From the NCBI GenBank assembly GCA_030706735.1, contig JAUZNZ010000029.1:1-59424 (forward strand): DNA of 59,424 nucleotides, written 5' to 3'. The translations under genes and the position numbers were made by a program. The notes under the pieces are model-generated. The model was not told the DNA's origin, did no database searches, and worked only from the letters and a program-made list of their open reading frames with translations. Shown here one piece after another: positions 9,238-19,420 of the stretch (position 1 is its first letter; the number at the start of each line of letters is the position of its first letter). The DNA is from Bacteroidota bacterium (GTDB taxonomy: Bacteria > Bacteroidota > Bacteroidia > Chitinophagales > Chitinophagaceae).

Positions 9238-9648
9238 TTAATTGTCATGAAGCCACAGTTTTACTATGGAATTTGTAATATCGACGAGTTCTCCAAAGGA
9301 ATCGGGCTTCCGGAGATAACAACTGGCACCCAATTCGTAGGATGTTTTACGGTCTGAAACGAGGGTCGAGGTCGTAAGCACAATAATAGGGATCTGTCCG
9401 AATTTTTTATTGCCCCTTATCTCTTTAAGCGCCTGAAGGCCCAGCATTCCGGGCATGTTCAGGTCCAGCAGGATCAGGGCCGGATAATCGGAACTATCGG
9501 AATGCAAGTTCTCCAGTAAGGTCTCGGCATTCTCAATAAAGACGTAGTCGATCTCGGGACTGTTTTCCAGGAAGGCGTCCAAAATAATCTGTCGGTCATC
9601 CGGATCATCGTCAACAATGTAGATCAGATTCTGTAAGTTGTTTTTCAT
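9238..9648 (-). CDS. Single-domain response regulator (CheY/Rcp1-like receiver)
   Basis: A 136-residue stand-alone receiver. Its acidic cluster is IVDDDPDD, the phospho-acceptor Asp lies in LILLDLNMPG, the Thr switch is in IVLTTST, and the conserved Lys is in CYLRKPDS. It has no output domain and so acts by protein contact or as a phosphate shuttle in a relay. It is transcribed away from the poly-HAMP hybrid kinase, with 243 bases between starts, and ends at its own terminator. Its position suggests that it receives phosphate from the neighbouring kinases; this is inference. Confidence 0.92.
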   Translation of the reverse strand: MKNNLQNLIYIVDDDPDDRQIILDAFLENSPEIDYVFIENAETLLENLHSDSSDYPALILLDLNMPGMLGLQALKEIRGNKKFGQIPIIVLTTSTLVSDRKTSYELGASCYLRKPDSFGELVDITNSIVKLWLHDN

Positions 9649-9869
9649 ACATGATGATTGTTCTGTGAAAAGGGCCAGGCTGATGTTTCTTTAAGGATCG
9701 TTAAATTTAGAAAATTAATGCCAATTCGTTACTTTTAATCACCCCATTTCACATGACCGATACATCACGGGCAATATCGATTGGTACAGTACTATAACCT
9801 TGCCAAACTGCACAGCCGCAGAGGGCAGGGTGTCGATTTTCATGACGGCTAAACAGTTGCATCGATCTA

Positions 9870-9891
9870 AATAATCTATTAATAATCTATT
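9870..9891 (+). repeat. Two tandem 11-base repeats directly before the poly-HAMP kinase start
   Basis: The unit AATAATCTATT occurs twice without interruption (9870-9880 and 9881-9891) and the second copy abuts the ATG at 9892. The position is that of a translation initiation region or repressor site. Bacteroidota often use AT-rich leaders instead of a Shine-Dalgarno sequence, so the repeat may simply serve that end. Confidence 0.6.
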
Positions 9892-11997
9892 ATGGCCAGT
9901 GCTAAAGAAACAAAAAAAAGGTCCGTAAAGCCCTCTTCCGTCGCCGCGGAAGTGAAGCGGCCGGCCCAATCCGCACTCAGGAACGGCCCGGCAACAAGGA
10001 ACGGGAACGGGGCGAAGAACGGCGGCGCCCAACACCGAAGCATGCACGCCGGCGATGAAGAATGGATCCTGGACAGCAAGGAACTGCTCTGGGTGCTGAC
10101 GGAAGTGCGCAACGGCAATTTCAACGTGCGCATGCCGATCGATCAGGTCGGCGTCCGCGGGAAGGTCTGCGACACGCTTAATGAGATCATCTCCCTCAAC
10201 GAAGAAATGATGCGCGAGTTCACGCGCGCGGGCAATACGATCGGTAAGCAGGGCAAGCTCACCCAACGCATCGAAGTGCCCAACGCAAAGGGCTCCTGGA
10301 GCACGGGCGTGGATTCGCTGAACTCCCTGGTTTCCGACCTGGTGCATCCGATCATCGAGATCGCGCATGTCATCAGTTCCGTCGCCAAAGGGAATCTTTC
10401 GCAGGACATGCCGCTGGAGATCGGCGGACACACGCTGCAGGGCGAGTTCGCGCGCATAGCCAAGGAGGTGAATGACATGGTGAAGCAGCTGAACCTCTTC
10501 TCCATGGAAGTAACGCGCGTGGCGCGCGAAGTAGGCTCGGAAGGCAAACTCGGCGGTCAGGCCAAGGTGAAAGGCGTGGGCGGAGTGTGGAAAGATCTCA
10601 CCGATTCCGTGAACCAGATGGGGAGCAATCTCACCGCCCAGGTACGTAATATCGCCGAAGTGACCACCGCCGTGGCAAAGGGTGACCTCTCGAAAAAGAT
10701 CACCGTGGACGTGAAGGGCGAAATATTGGAATTGAAGAACACGATCAATACGATGGTGGACCAGCTCAACTCCTTCTCCTCGGAAGTGACGCGCGTGGCC
10801 CTCGAAGTAGGTACGGAAGGCAAACTCGGCGGCCAGGCCCAGGTAAAGGGGGTCGCCGGCACCTGGAAGGACCTGACCGACTCGGTGAACCAGATGGCCT
10901 CCAACCTGACGGGCCAGGTGCGAAACATCGCCGAAGTGACGACGGCCGTGGCGAAGGGGGACCTGTCGCGAAAGATCACGGTGGACGTGCGCGGAGAGAT
11001 CCTCGAGCTGAAGAATACGATCAATACGATGGTGGACCAGCTCAACTCCTTCTCTTCGGAAGTGACGCGCGTGGCGCTCGAAGTCGGCACCGAGGGCAAA
11101 CTCGGCGGCCAGGCGCAGGTGAAGGGCGTTGCCGGCACCTGGAAGGATCTGACCGACTCGGTGAACGGGATGGCGGGCAACCTGACGGGCCAGGTGCGGA
11201 ACATCGCCGAAGTGACGACCGCCGTGGCCAAGGGAGACCTGTCGCGTAAGATCACGGTGGACGTGAAGGGCGAGATCCTCGAACTGAAGAATACGATCAA
11301 TACGATGGTGGACCAGCTCAACTCCTTCGGCTCCGAAGTAACGCGCGTGGCGCGTGAAGTGGGCTCGGAAGGCAAGCTGGGCGGCCAGGCGGACGTGCCG
11401 GGCGTGGGAGGTACCTGGAAGGACCTGACCGACTCGGTGAACAAGATGGCCTCCAACCTGACCTCGCAGGTACGTAATATCGCCGAAGTGACGACGGCTG
11501 TGGCCACGGGTGACCTTTCCCGGAAGATCGACGTGGACGTGAAGGGCGAAATATTGGAATTGAAGAATACGATCAATACGATGGTGGATCAGCTCCGCGG
11601 TTTCGCGTCGGAAGTGACGCGCGTGGCGCGAGAGGTCGGCTCCGAAGGCAAACTCGGCGGCCAGGCGACCGTGGAGGGCGTCGGCGGCGTATGGAAGGAC
11701 CTGACGGACTCGGTGAACGGGATGGCCTCCAACCTGACAGGCCAGGTGCGAAATATCGCCGAAGTGACGACGGCCGTGGCGAAGGGTGACCTTTCCCGTA
11801 AGATCACGGTGGACGTGAAAGGGGAGATCCTCGAGTTGAAGAATACGATCAATACGATGGTGGACCAGCTCAACTCCTTCGCCTCCGAAGTAACGCGCGT
11901 GGCGCGCGAGGTGGGGTCGGAAGGAAAGCTCGGCGGCCAGGCCGACGTGCCGGGCGTGGGCGGTATCTGGAAAGACCTCGCCGACTCGGTGAATTAG
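9892..11997 (+). CDS. Poly-HAMP hybrid histidine kinase, N-terminal part (ends at in-frame amber)
   Basis: 701 residues ending at TAG 11995-11997; the same frame continues for 1,363 more residues. Residues 1-55 are basic and low in complexity. Residues 60-199 hold a divergent HAMP pair ([36 protein letters not shown]). From residue 200 there are 92-residue units, each with [26 protein letters not shown] and [16 protein letters not shown]. Five are complete and the sixth is cut in the middle, after WKDLADSVN. No membrane segment is present, so the protein is cytoplasmic, like the HAMP arrays of group III hybrid kinases (fungal Nik1 type). In several sister repeats the codon at the stop is CAG (Gln). 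A nonsense mutation, a sequence error or a truly split gene are all possible. Alone, this part has no catalytic domain. Confidence 0.85.
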
Positions 11998-13248
11998 ATG
12001 GCCTCCAACCTGACCTCGCAGGTGCGTAATATCGCCGAGGTGACGACGGCCGTGGCGAATGGTGACCTGTCGCGCAAGATCACGGTGGACGTGCAGGGAG
12101 AAATATTGGAATTGAAGAATACGATCAATACGCTGGTGGACCAGCTCCGCGGATTCGCGTCGGAAGTGACGCGCGTGGCGCGTGAGGTCGGCACCGATGG
12201 TAAGCTGGGCGGACAAGCCTTTGTGCCGGGCGTCGCGGGTACCTGGAAAGACCTGACGGACTCGGTGAACCAGATGGCCGGCAACCTGACGGCGCAGGTG
12301 CGTAATATCGCCGAGGTCGCCATTGCCGTGGCCAACGGCGACATGTCCAAGAAGATCACGGTGGACGTCCGCGGCGAGATCCTGCAGCTGAAGGAGACGC
12401 TCAACACGATGGTGGACCAGCTGCGCGGCTTTGCCTCCGAAGTGACGCGTGTGGCGCGTGAGGTCGGTACCGACGGTAAGCTGGGCGGACAAGCCTTCGT
12501 GCCGGGCGTCGCCGGTACCTGGAAGGATCTGACCGACTCGGTGAACCAGATGACGGGTAACCTGACGGCCCAGGTGCGTAATATCGCCGAAGTGACCAAG
12601 GCGGTGGCCAGCGGCGACCTGTCGAAGACCGTGGCCATCGACGTAAAAGGGGAGATCCTCGACCTGAAGAATACGATCAATACCATGGTGGAGCAGCTGA
12701 ACTCGTTCGCCTTCGAAGTGACGCGCGTGGCGCGTGAAGTGGGCACGGAAGGAAAGCTTGGCGGCCAGGCCGAAGTGCGCGGCGTGGCCGGTACCTGGAA
12801 GGACCTGACCGACAGCGTGAACATGATGGCCTCCAACCTGACCAACCAGGTGCGCGGCATCGCCAAGGTGGTGACCGCCGTGGCGACGGGGAACCTGAAA
12901 CAGAAACTTTCGATCGTATCGCGCGGGGAAGTGGCTCAGCTGACCGATACGATCAACGAAATGATCGATACCCTGGCGCTGTTCGCCGACCAGGTGACGA
13001 CGGTCGCCCGTGAGGTCGGCGTCGAAGGTCGTTTGGGAGGCCAGGCCAGCGTGCCGGGCGCTTCCGGTATCTGGAAGAACCTGACGGAGAACGTAAACCA
13101 GCTGGCCCAGAACCTCACGACGCAGGTGCGTTCCATCTCCGAGGTGGCCTCCGCGGTGACCAAGGGTGACCTGACCCGTACGATCCGCGTCGAGGCGAAA
13201 GGCGAGGTGGAGGCCCTGAAGGATACGATCAACCAGATGATCGCGAAC
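10489..13248 (+). repeat. Ten tandem 276-bp repeats encoding HAMP units
   Basis: Ten in-register units of exactly 276 bp (92 codons) start at 10489, 10765, 11041, 11317, 11593, 11869, 12145, 12421, 12697 and 12973. Each begins with a CTG or CTC/Leu codon of LN-F or LRGF. Units 2 to 8 are nearly identical in protein and close at DNA level; units 9 and 10 are more divergent. No indel breaks the register. The amber codon is in unit 6. Such an array is prone to unequal recombination and to assembly errors. Confidence 0.92.
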
Positions 13249-16089
13249 CTCAAGGAGACGACGCTCCGCAACCAGGAACAGGACTGGCTGAAGTCGAACC
13301 TGGCGAAGTTCACCCAGATGTTGCAGGGACAGAAGGACCTCAAGACGGTGACGCAGCGCATCCTCTCCGAACTGGCGCAGGTCGTGACCGCCCACTACGG
13401 CGCCTTCTACATCCTGAACCAGAACGAGGAGAACCAGCAGGTCAAGCTCAACCTCTTTGCCGCCTACGGCTATCGCTCGGAGAAGAATATCCCGATCGAG
13501 TTCGCCATCGGCGAGGGGCTGGTCGGACAGGTGGCCTTTGAAAAAGAGCGCATCATCCTGTCAAACGTCCCATCGAACTATATCAAGATCAGTTCCGGCC
13601 TCGGCAGGGCCAAACCGGCCAACCTGATCATCCTGCCGGTGCTCTTCGAAAACAAAGTGAAGGCCGTTATCGAACTGGCCTCGCTCGACGCCTTCAGCGA
13701 AACCCACCTGGACTTCCTCAGCCAGCTGACGGAATCCATCGGTATCGTGCTGAATACGATCGAAGCCAATACGCGTACGGAGGAACTGCTGGCCCAGTCG
13801 CAATCGCTGGCCGGCGAGTTGAAGATCCAGCAGGAGGAGCTGCGGCGCACGAATGACGAGCTCCAGGATAAGGCCCTGCTGCTGGTCAAGCAGAAGAATG
13901 AAGTGGAGGCCAAGAATAAGGAGGTGGAAGAGGCGCGCCGTTCCCTGGAGGAAAAAGCCGAGCAGCTGACCCTTACCTCGAAGTACAAATCCGAGTTCCT
14001 GGCCAATATGTCCCATGAGCTGCGGACCCCGCTGAACAGCCTGCTGATCCTCGCGCAACAATTATATGAGAATGCGGAAGGGAATCTCTCGGACAAGCAG
14101 ATCCGCTATGCCCGTACCATCCACTCCTGCGGCGATGACCTGATCCAGCTGATCAACGACATCCTGGACCTTTCCAAGATCGAGTCCGGATTCATCACGG
14201 CCAATATCTCGCCGGTTCGTTTCGGGGAGATCGCCTCCTTCGTGGAAACGACCTTCAAGCCCATCTCGGAAGCCAGGCACCTGCGCTTTACCATCGAGAC
14301 GGACCCACGCCTGCCGCAAAGCCTGGAGACCGACTTGCAGCGACTCAACCAGATCCTCAAGAACCTGCTCTCCAACTCCTTCAAATTCACCGAAAAGGGC
14401 GAGGTGAAGCTGAGGATCTACGAGGCGCAGAATAACTGGAAGATGGGCAATCCCAGCCTCGAGCAGGCCAGGCAGGTCGTGGCATTCGCCATCAGCGATA
14501 CCGGCATCGGCATTCCCCAGGAGAAGCAAAATATCATTTTCGAAGCCTTCCAGCAGGCGGAGGGTTCGACCAGCCGGAAATACGGAGGAACGGGCCTCGG
14601 CCTTTCGATCAGCCGCGGTCTGGCCGAGCTCCTGGGCGGCACCATCGAGCTGGAAAGCCTCCCCGGCCGGGGCAGCACCTTTACGCTCTTCCTGCCGGTC
14701 GAGAGCATGTCGGGGACGGGAATCCTCTCCAAGGAGACCACCGATAACCTGCATGCCTACCGCAAGTTGCAACTGGAAGGGACGGACAGCGGGGAGATCG
14801 ATACCCTGCTCAATTCGCTGCGCATCACCAACGATGGCGTCGAATCGCAGAAGATGCCGATGGTCAACGAAATGATCAATGACACGGGGGATGACCGGAC
14901 CTCCATTCAGCCGAATGACCGGATCGTACTCATCGTGGAGGACGACCTCCGCTTCGGCCGCATCATCATCGAGACGGCGCATCAGTATGATCTCAAGGCC
15001 GTCGTCGCCACCAATTATATTGAAGTATTCGACTTCATCAACCGCTTCACGCCGATCGCCATCACCCTCGACGTCAAGCTGCCGGATACCAGCGGCTGGA
15101 AGGTGCTGGACCTGCTGCGTAACGACCTCAACTACCGGCATATCCCGATCCACCTGATCTCGGGCGAGGAGAACAAGGCCCTGGCGCTTAAACGCGGAGC
15201 CCGCTCATTCCTGTTGAAACCGCTCGAAAATGATGCCCTGAAGGAGCTCTTCTCCGACATCGTCTCGTTTAATGAGAAGGAGAAAAAGAAGGTGCTGGTC
15301 GTGGAGGACAACGAGATCTACTCTTCGCAGATCACCCGCATGCTGCAGGGCGACAACATCGAAGTCACCATCGCCGCCACGGGTAAAAAGGCCTTGCAGG
15401 AGAACAATATCAAGGACTTCGATTGCATCATCCTGGATTATACGCTGCCCGACATCAGCGGCCTGGACCTGGTCAACCGCGTCAGCGAGACCAAGAACAA
15501 GCTGACCCCGGTCATCGTCTACTCGGCGAAGGATTTTGATAAGCGGGAGCTTAATCACCTCAACCGCACGTCCAATTCGATCCTCCTGAAAGGGGTCAAC
15601 TCCCTGGAGCACCTGCTCGAGGAGGCGGTCCTGCAATTGCATATCAACCACAAGGATTTGGCGCCGGAAAAGAAGAAGGTGATCGAGAATATCCGCATGA
15701 AGGACGATATCCTGACCGGCAAGAACGTACTTTGCGTGGATGACGACGTCCGGAACCTCTTCGCGCTGACGACGGTGTTCGAACGCTATAATATGAATGT
15801 GATCACGGCGGAGAGCGGGAAAGACGCGATCTCCATCATCAATGACGACAAGCAGCGCATCGATATGGTGCTGATGGACATCATGATGCCCGAAATGGAT
15901 GGATATGAGACGACGCAGAAGATCCGGAGAGAGCATAAGAACAGCACCCTGCCGATCATCGCCGTGACCGCCAAGGCCATGAAAGGTGACCGGCAGAAGT
16001 GTATCGAGGCAGGCGCTTCCGATTATATCACGAAGCCGCTGAAGATCGATCAATTGCTTTCCCTGATGCGGGTTTGGTTCTATAAATAA
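11998..16089 (+). CDS. Poly-HAMP hybrid histidine kinase, C-terminal part: HAMP-GAF-HisKA-HATPase-REC3
   Basis: 1,363 residues whose ATG directly follows the amber codon of the upstream part. It finishes HAMP unit 6 and carries units 7-10 (to residue 417). A GAF domain (about 440-590) and a coiled coil (600-660) follow. The HisKA domain has SHELRTPLN, phosphorylated His 673. The HATPase has [22 protein letters not shown] and [10 protein letters not shown]. Three receivers come last: LIVEDD with LDVKLPD, VVEDNE with ILDYTLPD, and VDDDVRN with [11 protein letters not shown]. The kinase core is intact, so this part could be active alone if translated, either by restart at TAG-ATG or from its own signal. 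If the stop is an error, the full protein has 2,065 residues. The next kinase gene begins 13 bases downstream. Confidence 0.9.
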
Positions 16090-16102
16090 AGTAAATTAGC
16101 CG

Positions 16103-17452
16103 ATGCAGCCGAAGATACTTTTGGTGGATGACCGCGAGGACAATCTGCTCTCCATGGAGACCGTATTGGAGACTGACGGCTATAAGATCGTCAAGGCGAG
16201 CTCGGGACGCGAGGTATTGAAGATCCTGCTCTCCGACCTCGACTTTGCGCTGATCCTGATGGACGTCCAGATGCCCAATCTCAACGGCTTCGAGACGGCC
16301 TCCCTCATTTATGAACGGGAACGGCTCCGGCATATCCCGATCATTTTCATCACGGCCAATAATTTCGGCGAGGAGAACGTCTTCAAAGGCTACCGGGCGG
16401 GCGCCGTGGACTATATCTACAAGCCCGTCAACCCCGACCTGCTCCGGGTAAAGGTGGCGGTGTTCGTGGACCTGTACCGGAAGAACCATCGCCTGCTCTT
16501 GCAGGAACAAAAGCTGGTGGCCATCAACCGGAGCCTGGAACTGGAGATCAATGAACGAAAGGCCTCGGAAGAGAAGGTGACGGAATTGAACCGCATGCTC
16601 CTGGAGAACATCGCCCGCCTCGAAACGGCCAACAAGGACCTCGACCTTTTCGCCTTCATGGCCTCCCATGACCTGCAGGCGCCCTTGCGGAAAGTGCGCA
16701 TGTTCAGCGACCGGCTCCTGATGAACCATAAAGATTCGCTGAACAAGGACGGCCAGATGTACCTGGCCCGCATCAAAGAGGTATCCAAGCGGATGCAGGA
16801 CCTGATCAACGACATCCTTCGGTTCTCGAAGATCTCGGTGGAGCAGGAAACGCTGCGTGAAGTGGACCTGAACCGCGTCATCACCGATGTCCTTTCCGAA
16901 CTGGAGGGGCCCATCCGTGAAAAGAAGGCGGAGCTGATCATCGATCAGCTGCCCGTGCTCTGCGTGAATGAATTGTTGATGGGACCCCTGTTCTCCAACC
17001 TGATCAGCAATGCGATCAAGTATAGCCGCAAGGGGGTGCCCCCGGTGGTCAGGATCCGCTGTGATATTACACCTCCCCATGCGGCCGCCCCGTCCTCCTC
17101 ATCCACCCACGGCGGCGTCAATGGCGGTAACGGGGGCGCGAATGGCGGCGTCAATGGCGGCGGGATGAATGGCAACCTGATCGCGAAGGAACCCGAGACC
17201 CGGTATTGCCGTATTTATATTGAAGACAACGGCATCGGCTTCGACCAGAAATACGCCGAACAGATCTTCGATATGTTCAGGCGCCTGCACCCCAGCCCCG
17301 ACTATGAAGGCACCGGCATAGGGCTCGCTATTTGCAAGAAGATCGTAGAAAAACACGAGGGATTCATATCCGCCAGAGGCAAACCCGACGAAGGGGCCTC
17401 CTTTATCGTTTCCCTGCCATTTAAAGCCATAAAAGATGAAGTCTTATCCTAA
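16103..17452 (+). CDS. Receiver-histidine kinase with Gly/Asn-rich insert in the ATPase domain
   Basis: 449 residues. The receiver (1-120) has LLVDDRED, acceptor D54 in LILMDVQMPN and YIYKPVN. A coiled coil (130-180) follows, then a HisKA domain with FMASHDLQAPLRKV, H189, of the phytochrome-like type. The HATPase has GPLFSNLISNAIKYS, EDNGIGFDQ and YEGTGIGLAI. Between the N box and the next motif the domain holds an insert with a Ser run and a Gly/Asn stretch (residues 336-358, bases 17108-17176), unusual in this domain. It starts 13 bases after the poly-HAMP kinase and overlaps or abuts the next kinase gene, so the three form an operon. No membrane segment; input is likely phosphate or protein contact through the receiver. 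Confidence 0.92.
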   Translation: MQPKILLVDDREDNLLSMETVLETDGYKIVKASSGREVLKILLSDLDFALILMDVQMPNLNGFETASLIYERERLRHIPIIFITANNFGEENVFKGYRAGAVDYIYKPVNPDLLRVKVAVFVDLYRKNHRLLLQEQKLVAINRSLELEINERKASEEKVTELNRMLLENIARLETANKDLDLFAFMASHDLQAPLRKVRMFSDRLLMNHKDSLNKDGQMYLARIKEVSKRMQDLINDILRFSKISVEQETLREVDLNRVITDVLSELEGPIREKKAELIIDQLPVLCVNELLMGPLFSNLISNAIKYSRKGVPPVVRIRCDITPPHAAAPSSSSTHGGVNGGNGGANGGVNGGGMNGNLIAKEPETRYCRIYIEDNGIGFDQKYAEQIFDMFRRLHPSPDYEGTGIGLAICKKIVEKHEGFISARGKPDEGASFIVSLPFKAIKDEVLS

Positions 17453-17510
17453 ATTAAAGACTGAAAACAATAATTTAGCCGATAAACGGGAAAAACAAGC
17501 GGGAGTTTCC

Positions 17511-18953
17511 ATGCACCATACCATGCCGACGAATATACTGATCGTGGAAGACGACGAGGATGACTTTTTGATCATAAAGGGGTGCATCAGCGACATTCCC
17601 GGAAAACAATTCAATATCGACTGGTGCTACACCTTCGAGGAGGCCCTGGACAATATCGCCAAACGGCACTACGACCTGTATTTCGTGGATTATCTGCTCG
17701 GGGCCAAAACGGGACTGGAATTGCTCCGCGAAGCCATCGACATGGGCTGCGAAGACCCGATCGTCCTGCTCACGGGGATCGGCAACCGCGACGTCGACGT
17801 CGAGGCCATGAAGATCGGCGCCGTCGACTATCTGGTCAAATCGGACATTAATACCGAAAAACTCGAGCGCTGCATCCGCTATGCCCTGGAACGCAGCACT
17901 TATCTGCGCGCGCTCCGGGCGAACGAGCGGAAATTTCACAGCATCTTCGAACGATCCAAGGATGCGGTCTTCCTGGCCGATGAAAAATTGGTTTTCCGCG
18001 ACGTCAACGCCGCCACCTGCGAGCTCTTTAAATATAACAAGGACGAACTGCTGAGGGTCAGCCTGACCGCGCTCTTTGCCCGCCGCGATGCCGCCGACCT
18101 GCTGGAGGAGCAGCTCAAGTCGGAGGGGGAAGTAGAGGACCTGGAAGTGGAATTGCTGACCCGCAAAAAGGAAAAGCGGAACTGCATCCTGTCCATTTCC
18201 CGGGAGACCAATTCCAGCGGGGACACCTATATCCAGGGCATCATCCACGATATTACCAACCTGAAACGGATCGAAAGGGCGACGTTCCAGATCGAGAAAT
18301 TGCGATCCACCGCCATGCTGCTGAGGACACTGGCCCATGAGGTGCGCAATCCCCTCACCAATATCAACCTCTCCATCGAACAATTGAAGCCGGATATTCA
18401 CGGTGACGACGCCACGATCTACCTGGACATCATCGCGCGCAATTGCGGCCGGATCGACGCGCTGATCTCCGAACTGCTTGACCTTTCGCGCCCGGCGGAA
18501 ATTTCCCTGCAAAAGGTGTCCCTTCAAACCATCATGAACAAGACGGTGGCCGCGGCGGCAGACCGCATTTCGCTGAAGGGCATCGCCCTGGAGGAGATCT
18601 ATCCGAAGGAACCTACCCATGTCATGGCCGATCTGGAGAAATTGAAGATCGCCATGCTGAACATCATCATTAACGCCATCGAAGCCGTGCCGCGGGAATC
18701 GGGAAAGATCTCGATCTCGATCAGGGAGGAGGGGAATCTGTTCAAGATCCTGATCAGCGACAATGGCGGGGGCATTCCGGAGGAGAACCTTTCCCGCATC
18801 TTCGAACCCTACTTCACCTCCAAGACCAATGGCTTCGGGCTGGGCCTCGCGGCAACCTGGAATATCCTTCAATCCCATCACGCCAGCATCGAGGTCAACT
18901 CCCAGCTCGGGGAAGGCACCAACTTCGTCATTGCCTTCGAACAGGCCGACTGA
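17511..18953 (+). CDS. Receiver-PAS-histidine kinase
   Basis: 480 residues from the ATG at 17511. The receiver (about 8-125) has LIVEDDEDD, D60 in YFVDYLLG and YLVKSDI. A PAS domain (140-255) follows with FERSKDAVFLADEKLVF. The HisKA domain has TLAHEVRNPLTNI, H276. The HATPase shows IAMLNIIINAIEAV, SDNGGGIP and FGLGLAATWNI, the NtrB-like pattern. Two earlier or later starts exist: ATG 17436, which overlaps the previous gene by 17 bases, and ATG 17523. The N-terminal receiver suggests control by an upstream kinase, probably one of the two preceding ones. It completes the kinase operon. Membrane segments are absent, so all kinases here are cytoplasmic. Confidence 0.92.
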   Translation: MHHTMPTNILIVEDDEDDFLIIKGCISDIPGKQFNIDWCYTFEEALDNIAKRHYDLYFVDYLLGAKTGLELLREAIDMGCEDPIVLLTGIGNRDVDVEAMKIGAVDYLVKSDINTEKLERCIRYALERSTYLRALRANERKFHSIFERSKDAVFLADEKLVFRDVNAATCELFKYNKDELLRVSLTALFARRDAADLLEEQLKSEGEVEDLEVELLTRKKEKRNCILSISRETNSSGDTYIQGIIHDITNLKRIERATFQIEKLRSTAMLLRTLAHEVRNPLTNINLSIEQLKPDIHGDDATIYLDIIARNCGRIDALISELLDLSRPAEISLQKVSLQTIMNKTVAAAADRISLKGIALEEIYPKEPTHVMADLEKLKIAMLNIIINAIEAVPRESGKISISIREEGNLFKILISDNGGGIPEENLSRIFEPYFTSKTNGFGLGLAATWNILQSHHASIEVNSQLGEGTNFVIAFEQAD

Positions 18954-18973
18954 GGGACCGCACGGCGCGAACC

Positions 18974-19420
18974 TTACAACACCTCCTTATCGAAGGTCTT
19001 ATTGTGGAATAGCACGGGCACCGCAATGGTCGCGGTAATCCCCAGAATGAGAATGATCCCCGTAAGCAATACCTTGAAATGGGCATTGATCACCTCATCG
19101 TCGGAACGGTGCACGCCCGATACCTTCCAGACCAGGAAGGCGGTCAGCAGGGCGAAGACCAGGCTATAGGGGATATCTCCTTTTGCGAAGGCTTTCCGGA
19201 AACCAAAATACACCACGCCCACCACGACGAAGGCCGCATTGATGATAAAGATCAGCGAAGAGACGTTGATGATATCCGCCGGAAAATATCCGACGCTGCC
19301 CCTGTACCAGATATTGTAGAACAGGCAGATGATCGTGTCTATGAAGCCGACAAAAACGCCCGTGAGCAGGGTCTTATGAAAGAGCGATTGAGGGTCGGAC
19401 CCCTGTTGATCGTACACCAT
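18974..19420 (-). CDS. Four-helix membrane protein, unknown function
   Basis: 148 residues with four hydrophobic segments: VFVGFIDTIICLFYNIWY, SLIFIINAAFVVVGVVYF, SLVFALLTAFLVWKV and LLTGIILILGITATIAVPVL. The short N-terminus is hydrophilic and the tail is charged. I do not recognise a named family; similar small membrane proteins are common in Chitinophagaceae. The ATG at 19420 is taken because the earlier in-frame ATG at 19444 lies inside a long inverted repeat. The gene is convergent with the kinase operon, ending 20 bases from it. Confidence 0.65.
   Translation of the reverse strand: MVYDQQGSDPQSLFHKTLLTGVFVGFIDTIICLFYNIWYRGSVGYFPADIINVSSLIFIINAAFVVVGVVYFGFRKAFAKGDIPYSLVFALLTAFLVWKVSGVHRSDDEVINAHFKVLLTGIILILGITATIAVPVLFHNKTFDKEVL

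Follow-up and report, generated by a model that had tools for sequence, protein, structure and literature searches.

A 59,424-nt window of a Chitinophagaceae genome (Bacteroidota; contig JAUZNZ010000029.1 of assembly GCA_030706735.1) carries a poly-HAMP histidine kinase gene interrupted by an internal amber codon, which we consider probably to be a very recent nonsense allele, produced by one base change in a gene that is a single chain in the examined relatives. Re-reading of the plus-strand frame at 9892-16089 (2,066 codons, terminal TAA) bore out the original prediction of a single break, a TAG at 11995-11997 with an ATG directly 3' of it at 11998. As had also been claimed, the second part keeps an intact kinase core, with HisKA and HATPase_c both present and no stop within HATPase_c (Table 1). 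A profile search of the genome gave 11 HAMP_2 matches above cut-off in the frame, one of which holds the TAG, and Pfam placed six HAMP stretches (PF00672) in the part before the stop and five in the second part, so that HAMP and HAMP_2 matches lie on both sides. Judged from its sequence, the encoded protein is a predicted hybrid histidine kinase of Chitinophagaceae with poly-HAMP, GAF, HisKA, HATPase and three REC domains.

Table 1. Features of the interrupted kinase gene and its neighbours, in window coordinates.
Feature	Position	Strand	Source
Divergent single-REC gene; similar gene at 12 of 23 orthologue loci	9238..9648	-	Pfam
First part: N-terminal cap and first poly-HAMP units, 701 aa, ends at the TAG	9892..11997	+	
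N-terminal cap region, 165 aa, served as query	10066..10560	+	
Codon 692, ten codons 5' of the stop: Ile in this genome alone, all 12 aligned relatives having Thr	11965..11967	+	
In-frame amber stop; 13 of 16 relatives have Lys at the orthologous position	11995..11997	+	
Second part from the ATG, 1,363 aa: remaining poly-HAMP units, GAF, HisKA, HATPase_c, three REC	11998..16089	+	
GAF_2 domain, residues 446-585 of part 2	13333..13752	+	Pfam
HisKA domain, residues 664-731 of part 2	13987..14190	+	Pfam
HATPase_c domain, stop-free	14332..14703	+	Pfam
Top-scoring of three REC domains, residues 1244-1356 of part 2	15727..16065	+	Pfam
REC-HisKA-HATPase gene, open frame; similar gene at 22 of 23 loci	16103..17452	+	Pfam
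REC-PAS-HisKA-HATPase gene, open frame; close match in L035 alone	17436..18953	+	Pfam

The traits of a group III type poly-HAMP kinase, namely tandem HAMPs on the N-terminal side, a HisKA and HATPase_c core and receivers, are all present. The one-chain arrangement of cap, HAMP array and kinase, which the relatives have, is absent in this genome, where the TAG at 11995 divides it. In the available text of one report (PMC7643160), AskA and AskB of Myxococcus xanthus and Amb07 of Sorangium cellulosum are likewise bacterial poly-HAMP hybrid histidine kinases, and the SpoIIID-like partial Pfam matches that it describes over their HAMPs are shared by this gene; the likeness is one of description, and the amber interruption sets this gene apart from those three. 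The HAMP units of the array also strongly matched the sequences of PDB entries 9TRK and 9TRJ (“histidine kinase,Gcn4p”; E 1.1e-87 for 9TRK), the first part of which looks cap-like by eye as well. Going by their name, these entries are a fragment fused to Gcn4p, unlike this gene.

To place the stop in its line of descent, we compared the orthologous codon in related genomes, as had been suggested, taking as the orthologous unit the fifth marker from the C-terminal end, counted over relatives that reach the position. None of these 16 has a stop at this place; 13 carry Lys (AAG or AAA), two Ile (G014, G017) and one Gln (G008). This count leaves aside G006, whose array lies over two contigs, G004, G016, G021 and G040, which fall short of the position or are unplaceable, and G011 and G044, partial matches with unfetched sequences. 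In a 12-genome alignment Lys stood at the stop position in 11 of 12, and G046, the nearest genome by DNA, has AAG there. The original prediction had instead read the codon against sister units of the same array, and the codons that it gave after VN are correct (CAG in units 1, 2, 7 and 8; GGG in 3 and 5; AAG in 4; ATG in 9), unit 10 having CAG too but followed by CTG. However, because the orthologous codon is mostly Lys, CAG is the wrong reference for descent, and a Gln-to-stop route by C-to-T was discarded. One A-to-T change in AAG is enough to give TAG, and the AAT before the stop, present in 11 of the 16 rows, is no second change peculiar to this genome.

The sister units, described beforehand as ten near-identical copies, are indeed alike as protein, but as DNA the array matches itself at just 74-81%. 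Across the genus (window 10288-13254 and its orthologues), the units hold position-specific residues without homogenisation, and full genes have anywhere from 7 to 11 unit markers. Over its best-placed two-HAMP stretch, the array has 81-95% protein identity in most of the listed loci (L035-L114), a set that spans Bacteroidota, Cyanobacteria, Proteobacteria and Acidobacteria; the kinase parts of the non-Bacteroidota loci match at about 46-52%.

We then examined how far the relatives keep the gene in one frame. A same-genus search of 33 genomes, including this one, with the intact G046 gene as query (match at E 1e-200 or better) found 30 places in 24 genomes, several of them spanning only part of the gene, and an in-frame stop in two, here and in G021. 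The stop of G021, a sister species, is a TAG replacing Glu in GEILELKN, in a different unit (L167, G021:C276, about 2112-2114), on a contig that ends inside the array. G041 looked split too, but this was rejected, since it is an N-run that interrupts the frame. A search of 296 Bacteroidota genomes gave the N-terminal cap in 10; the nine besides this one carry it in frames of 1,484-2,233 aa, two of which match at only 30-32% identity. A wider set of 80 named GTDB loci held 61 homologous kinase frames closed at the 5' end, 56 of which carry the cap; the 5' end of the other 19 was open, which kept them out of the count. The five without it were L060, L112, L048, L095 and L098. A screen of the 80 loci for a clean in-frame stop splitting the gene at a unit flagged L060 and L112, neither of which is a natural split, the former having an N-run and the latter a frameshift near a contig edge. 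L048 (Flavobacteriaceae bacterium CRH) is a cap-less poly-HAMP kinase frame that starts abruptly within a unit (4117); no HAMP-like match was found upstream and no in-frame stop split was seen there, which suggests a deletion or misassembly. The two Nostoc loci, L095 and L098, were rejected as cap-less poly-HAMP kinases, because their frames start with an apparently membrane-anchored sensor, as judged by eye. Of the three readings offered beforehand, inactivation or sequence error therefore fits the relatives examined, which are single-frame with no stop here, and the third, a true split, found no support.

As we formulate it, that third reading holds that termination at UAG and restart at the adjoining AUG give a cap-HAMP chain and a HAMP-kinase chain that act together, which we consider improbable. 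Its fuller form, a newly born two-chain poly-HAMP kinase with UAG-AUG coupling, a fixed ratio and joining at the helix break, appears slightly more doubtful still, although, if true, it would mean that long signalling rods are divisible by one mutation. The distance of zero from stop to AUG speaks for it: in the available text of PMC10666635, E. coli restarts most efficiently where the two frames overlap or lie a very short way apart, and at +2 nt the loss came to 5, 20 and 70% for three pairs. The stop position is variable, with many residues there among the homologous loci, and the next residue is Met with at least 90% conservation, so a stop arising here is usually followed by ATG. Among single-base routes to a stop, 13 of 569 in the frame (2.3%) and 7 of 253 in the array (2.8%) fall directly before an ATG, and the pair TAG-ATG does not call for selection; as a post hoc observation, it is mildly unusual.

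Other features bear on restart in both directions. Both pieces are conserved, the break falls at a HAMP-HAMP joint, closed homologues with just four unit markers occur (L070, L072), and L048 offers a closed frame of a cap-less poly-HAMP kinase. Against this, L070 and L072 retain the cap and the second chain here is without it; and in none of the relatives examined, the 80 named loci included, does a clean in-frame stop divide the gene at a unit. The base at -3 of the AUG at 11998 is T, and starts in Bacteroidota are favoured by an A there (PMC6847099, available text). Poly-HAMP kinases in split form were not found described in the open-licence literature searched. The missing A(-3), the absence of a split in relatives and a kinase half lacking the cap together told against a true split as proposed. 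Folding of 70 nt around this AUG gave -16.7 kcal/mol, compared with -3.4 at the gene's own start and -13.8 at the intact gene at 16103; being no better than shuffles (z -0.63), and with an intact gene folding at -13.8, this is weak evidence. A structure model of low confidence (mean pLDDT 60), used for helix assignment only, puts the broken residue at 63 of the modelled segment, within a helix from 54 to 83, and the ATG at 11998, the nearly invariant Met of the array, lies inside this predicted helix. The break would thus leave the predicted helix in two halves, and the notion that the two proteins meet through matching half-units gave way to a cut that probably runs through a helix at the HAMP-to-HAMP joint.

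Selection on the gene was estimated on both sides of the stop. Pairwise dN/dS of the array against G046 was 0.021 before the stop and 0.008 after it. On this genome's own branch, the pre-stop array had a dN/dS of 0.019-0.031, with bootstrap upper bounds of 0.034-0.098, and a dN of 0.009-0.013 (three-point estimates), like that of the G046 branch; with each of four outgroups, the differences in array dN between the two branches included zero, before as well as after the stop. Purifying selection on the array is very strong before the stop and after it, and decay has not begun. Conserved open pieces on both sides would equally fit a young split. In the GAF-kinase part, amino-acid change on the own branch exceeded that of G046 with three of four outgroups, by 0.011-0.016, and the fourth showed no excess; with lower bootstrap limits of 0.000, -0.003 and -0.001, these differences stand at or just short of 95%, and the surplus could be slight relaxation or nothing. 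Beyond codon 80, this genome alone departs at seven positions that are fixed among 12 aligned relatives, a count that is none in G002 and above seven in six of the twelve. Thr-to-Ile makes up three of the seven (window 10351, 11965 and 13495, each fixed in 12 of 12). These estimates allow only a rough timing and no date, because dS is near saturation and some three-point branch values were negative or saturated.

A base error in the draft assembly, with the gene intact in the cell, would give the same picture as a nonsense allele, as one base is enough for either, and we hold this to be the less likely source of the TAG, though with an appreciable chance of being right. An array free of relaxed selection agrees with it, as does the draft state of the assembly (100 contigs), which is judged incomplete because Ile(gat) and Ala(tgc) are missing from the typed tRNAs and 16S was not found in it, in a search that recovered 16S from just 9 of 14 named genomes as a control. 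The other amber, that of G021, sits no more than 500 bp from the end of a contig. On the other hand, the stop here lies 12 kb inside a 59 kb contig, with no repeated 31-mer over the TAG, and TAG occurs in no other unit from which it could have been borrowed. Repeat collapse or misassembly is unlikely to have caused it: exact repeats in 9892-13400 reach 45 bp at most, and none of at least 31 bp covers the stop. The HATPase_c matches of this genome, 94 in number, had four flagged stops, each in one of the final two codons of its match; three look like ordinary gene ends and the fourth like a degenerate remnant, so this family shows no general excess of false stops.

Strong conservation on either side of the stop and a further amber in the G021 copy of the gene would also accord with readthrough of the amber, whether by a suppressor tRNA or through programmed recoding, which we nonetheless judge highly improbable. 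A cta anticodon is absent from the 44 typed tRNAs among 45 tRNA-like places of this incomplete draft; the 45th (C5:126223-126283) is a 61-nt remnant left uncalled by ARAGORN, with no anticodon arm by eye. The two ambers stand at different places. TAG accounts for 374 of the frame's 569 single-base stop routes, which puts the expected share of TAG-TAG pairs at about 43%, and with stop routes this TAG-heavy and no UAG-reading tRNA typed, we dismissed the two ambers of the genus as a sign of suppression. No Rfam family was found in 9600-19000 at gathering cut-offs.

If the TAG is a recent nonsense allele, as we favour, the full-length kinase would be lost, and the cell would make a cap-and-HAMP fragment of 701 aa, possibly acting as a dominant partner; occasional restart at the adjacent AUG may yield a little cap-less kinase. 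In the available text of PMC3848655, the fungal group III kinase CaNik1p has tandem HAMPs before its kinase and receiver that restrain the pathway, and removal of all of them left the pathway active without stimulus. By this precedent the outcome could be deregulation instead of loss, although CaNik1p is eukaryotic and lost all its HAMPs by design, whereas about half would stay with the kinase here. The allele would have to be young, in a species represented by one genome. The in-frame stops of this genome and G021, at different places, affect two of the 24 matched genomes. As matters stand, it counts as an ordinary nonsense allele of a single genome. If real and expressed, it would matter in that one base change could cut poly-HAMP arrays into two chains, given the free position followed by a nearly fixed Met in most units, and the allele could serve to test whether the kinase is kept inactive by the outer HAMPs.

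The interrupted gene lies in a signalling cluster (9238-18953) made up of a divergent REC gene, the poly-HAMP kinase, a REC-kinase and a REC-PAS-kinase, the first three of which often occur together at the loci examined. The 23 orthologue loci of Table 1 include two from one genome, and most of the fetched loci end before the place of the fourth gene. Antisense to the whole HAMP array runs an open frame of 1,218 aa (window 9739-13395, minus strand), which is probably a mirror of the repeat and of codon bias (GC3 0.82).
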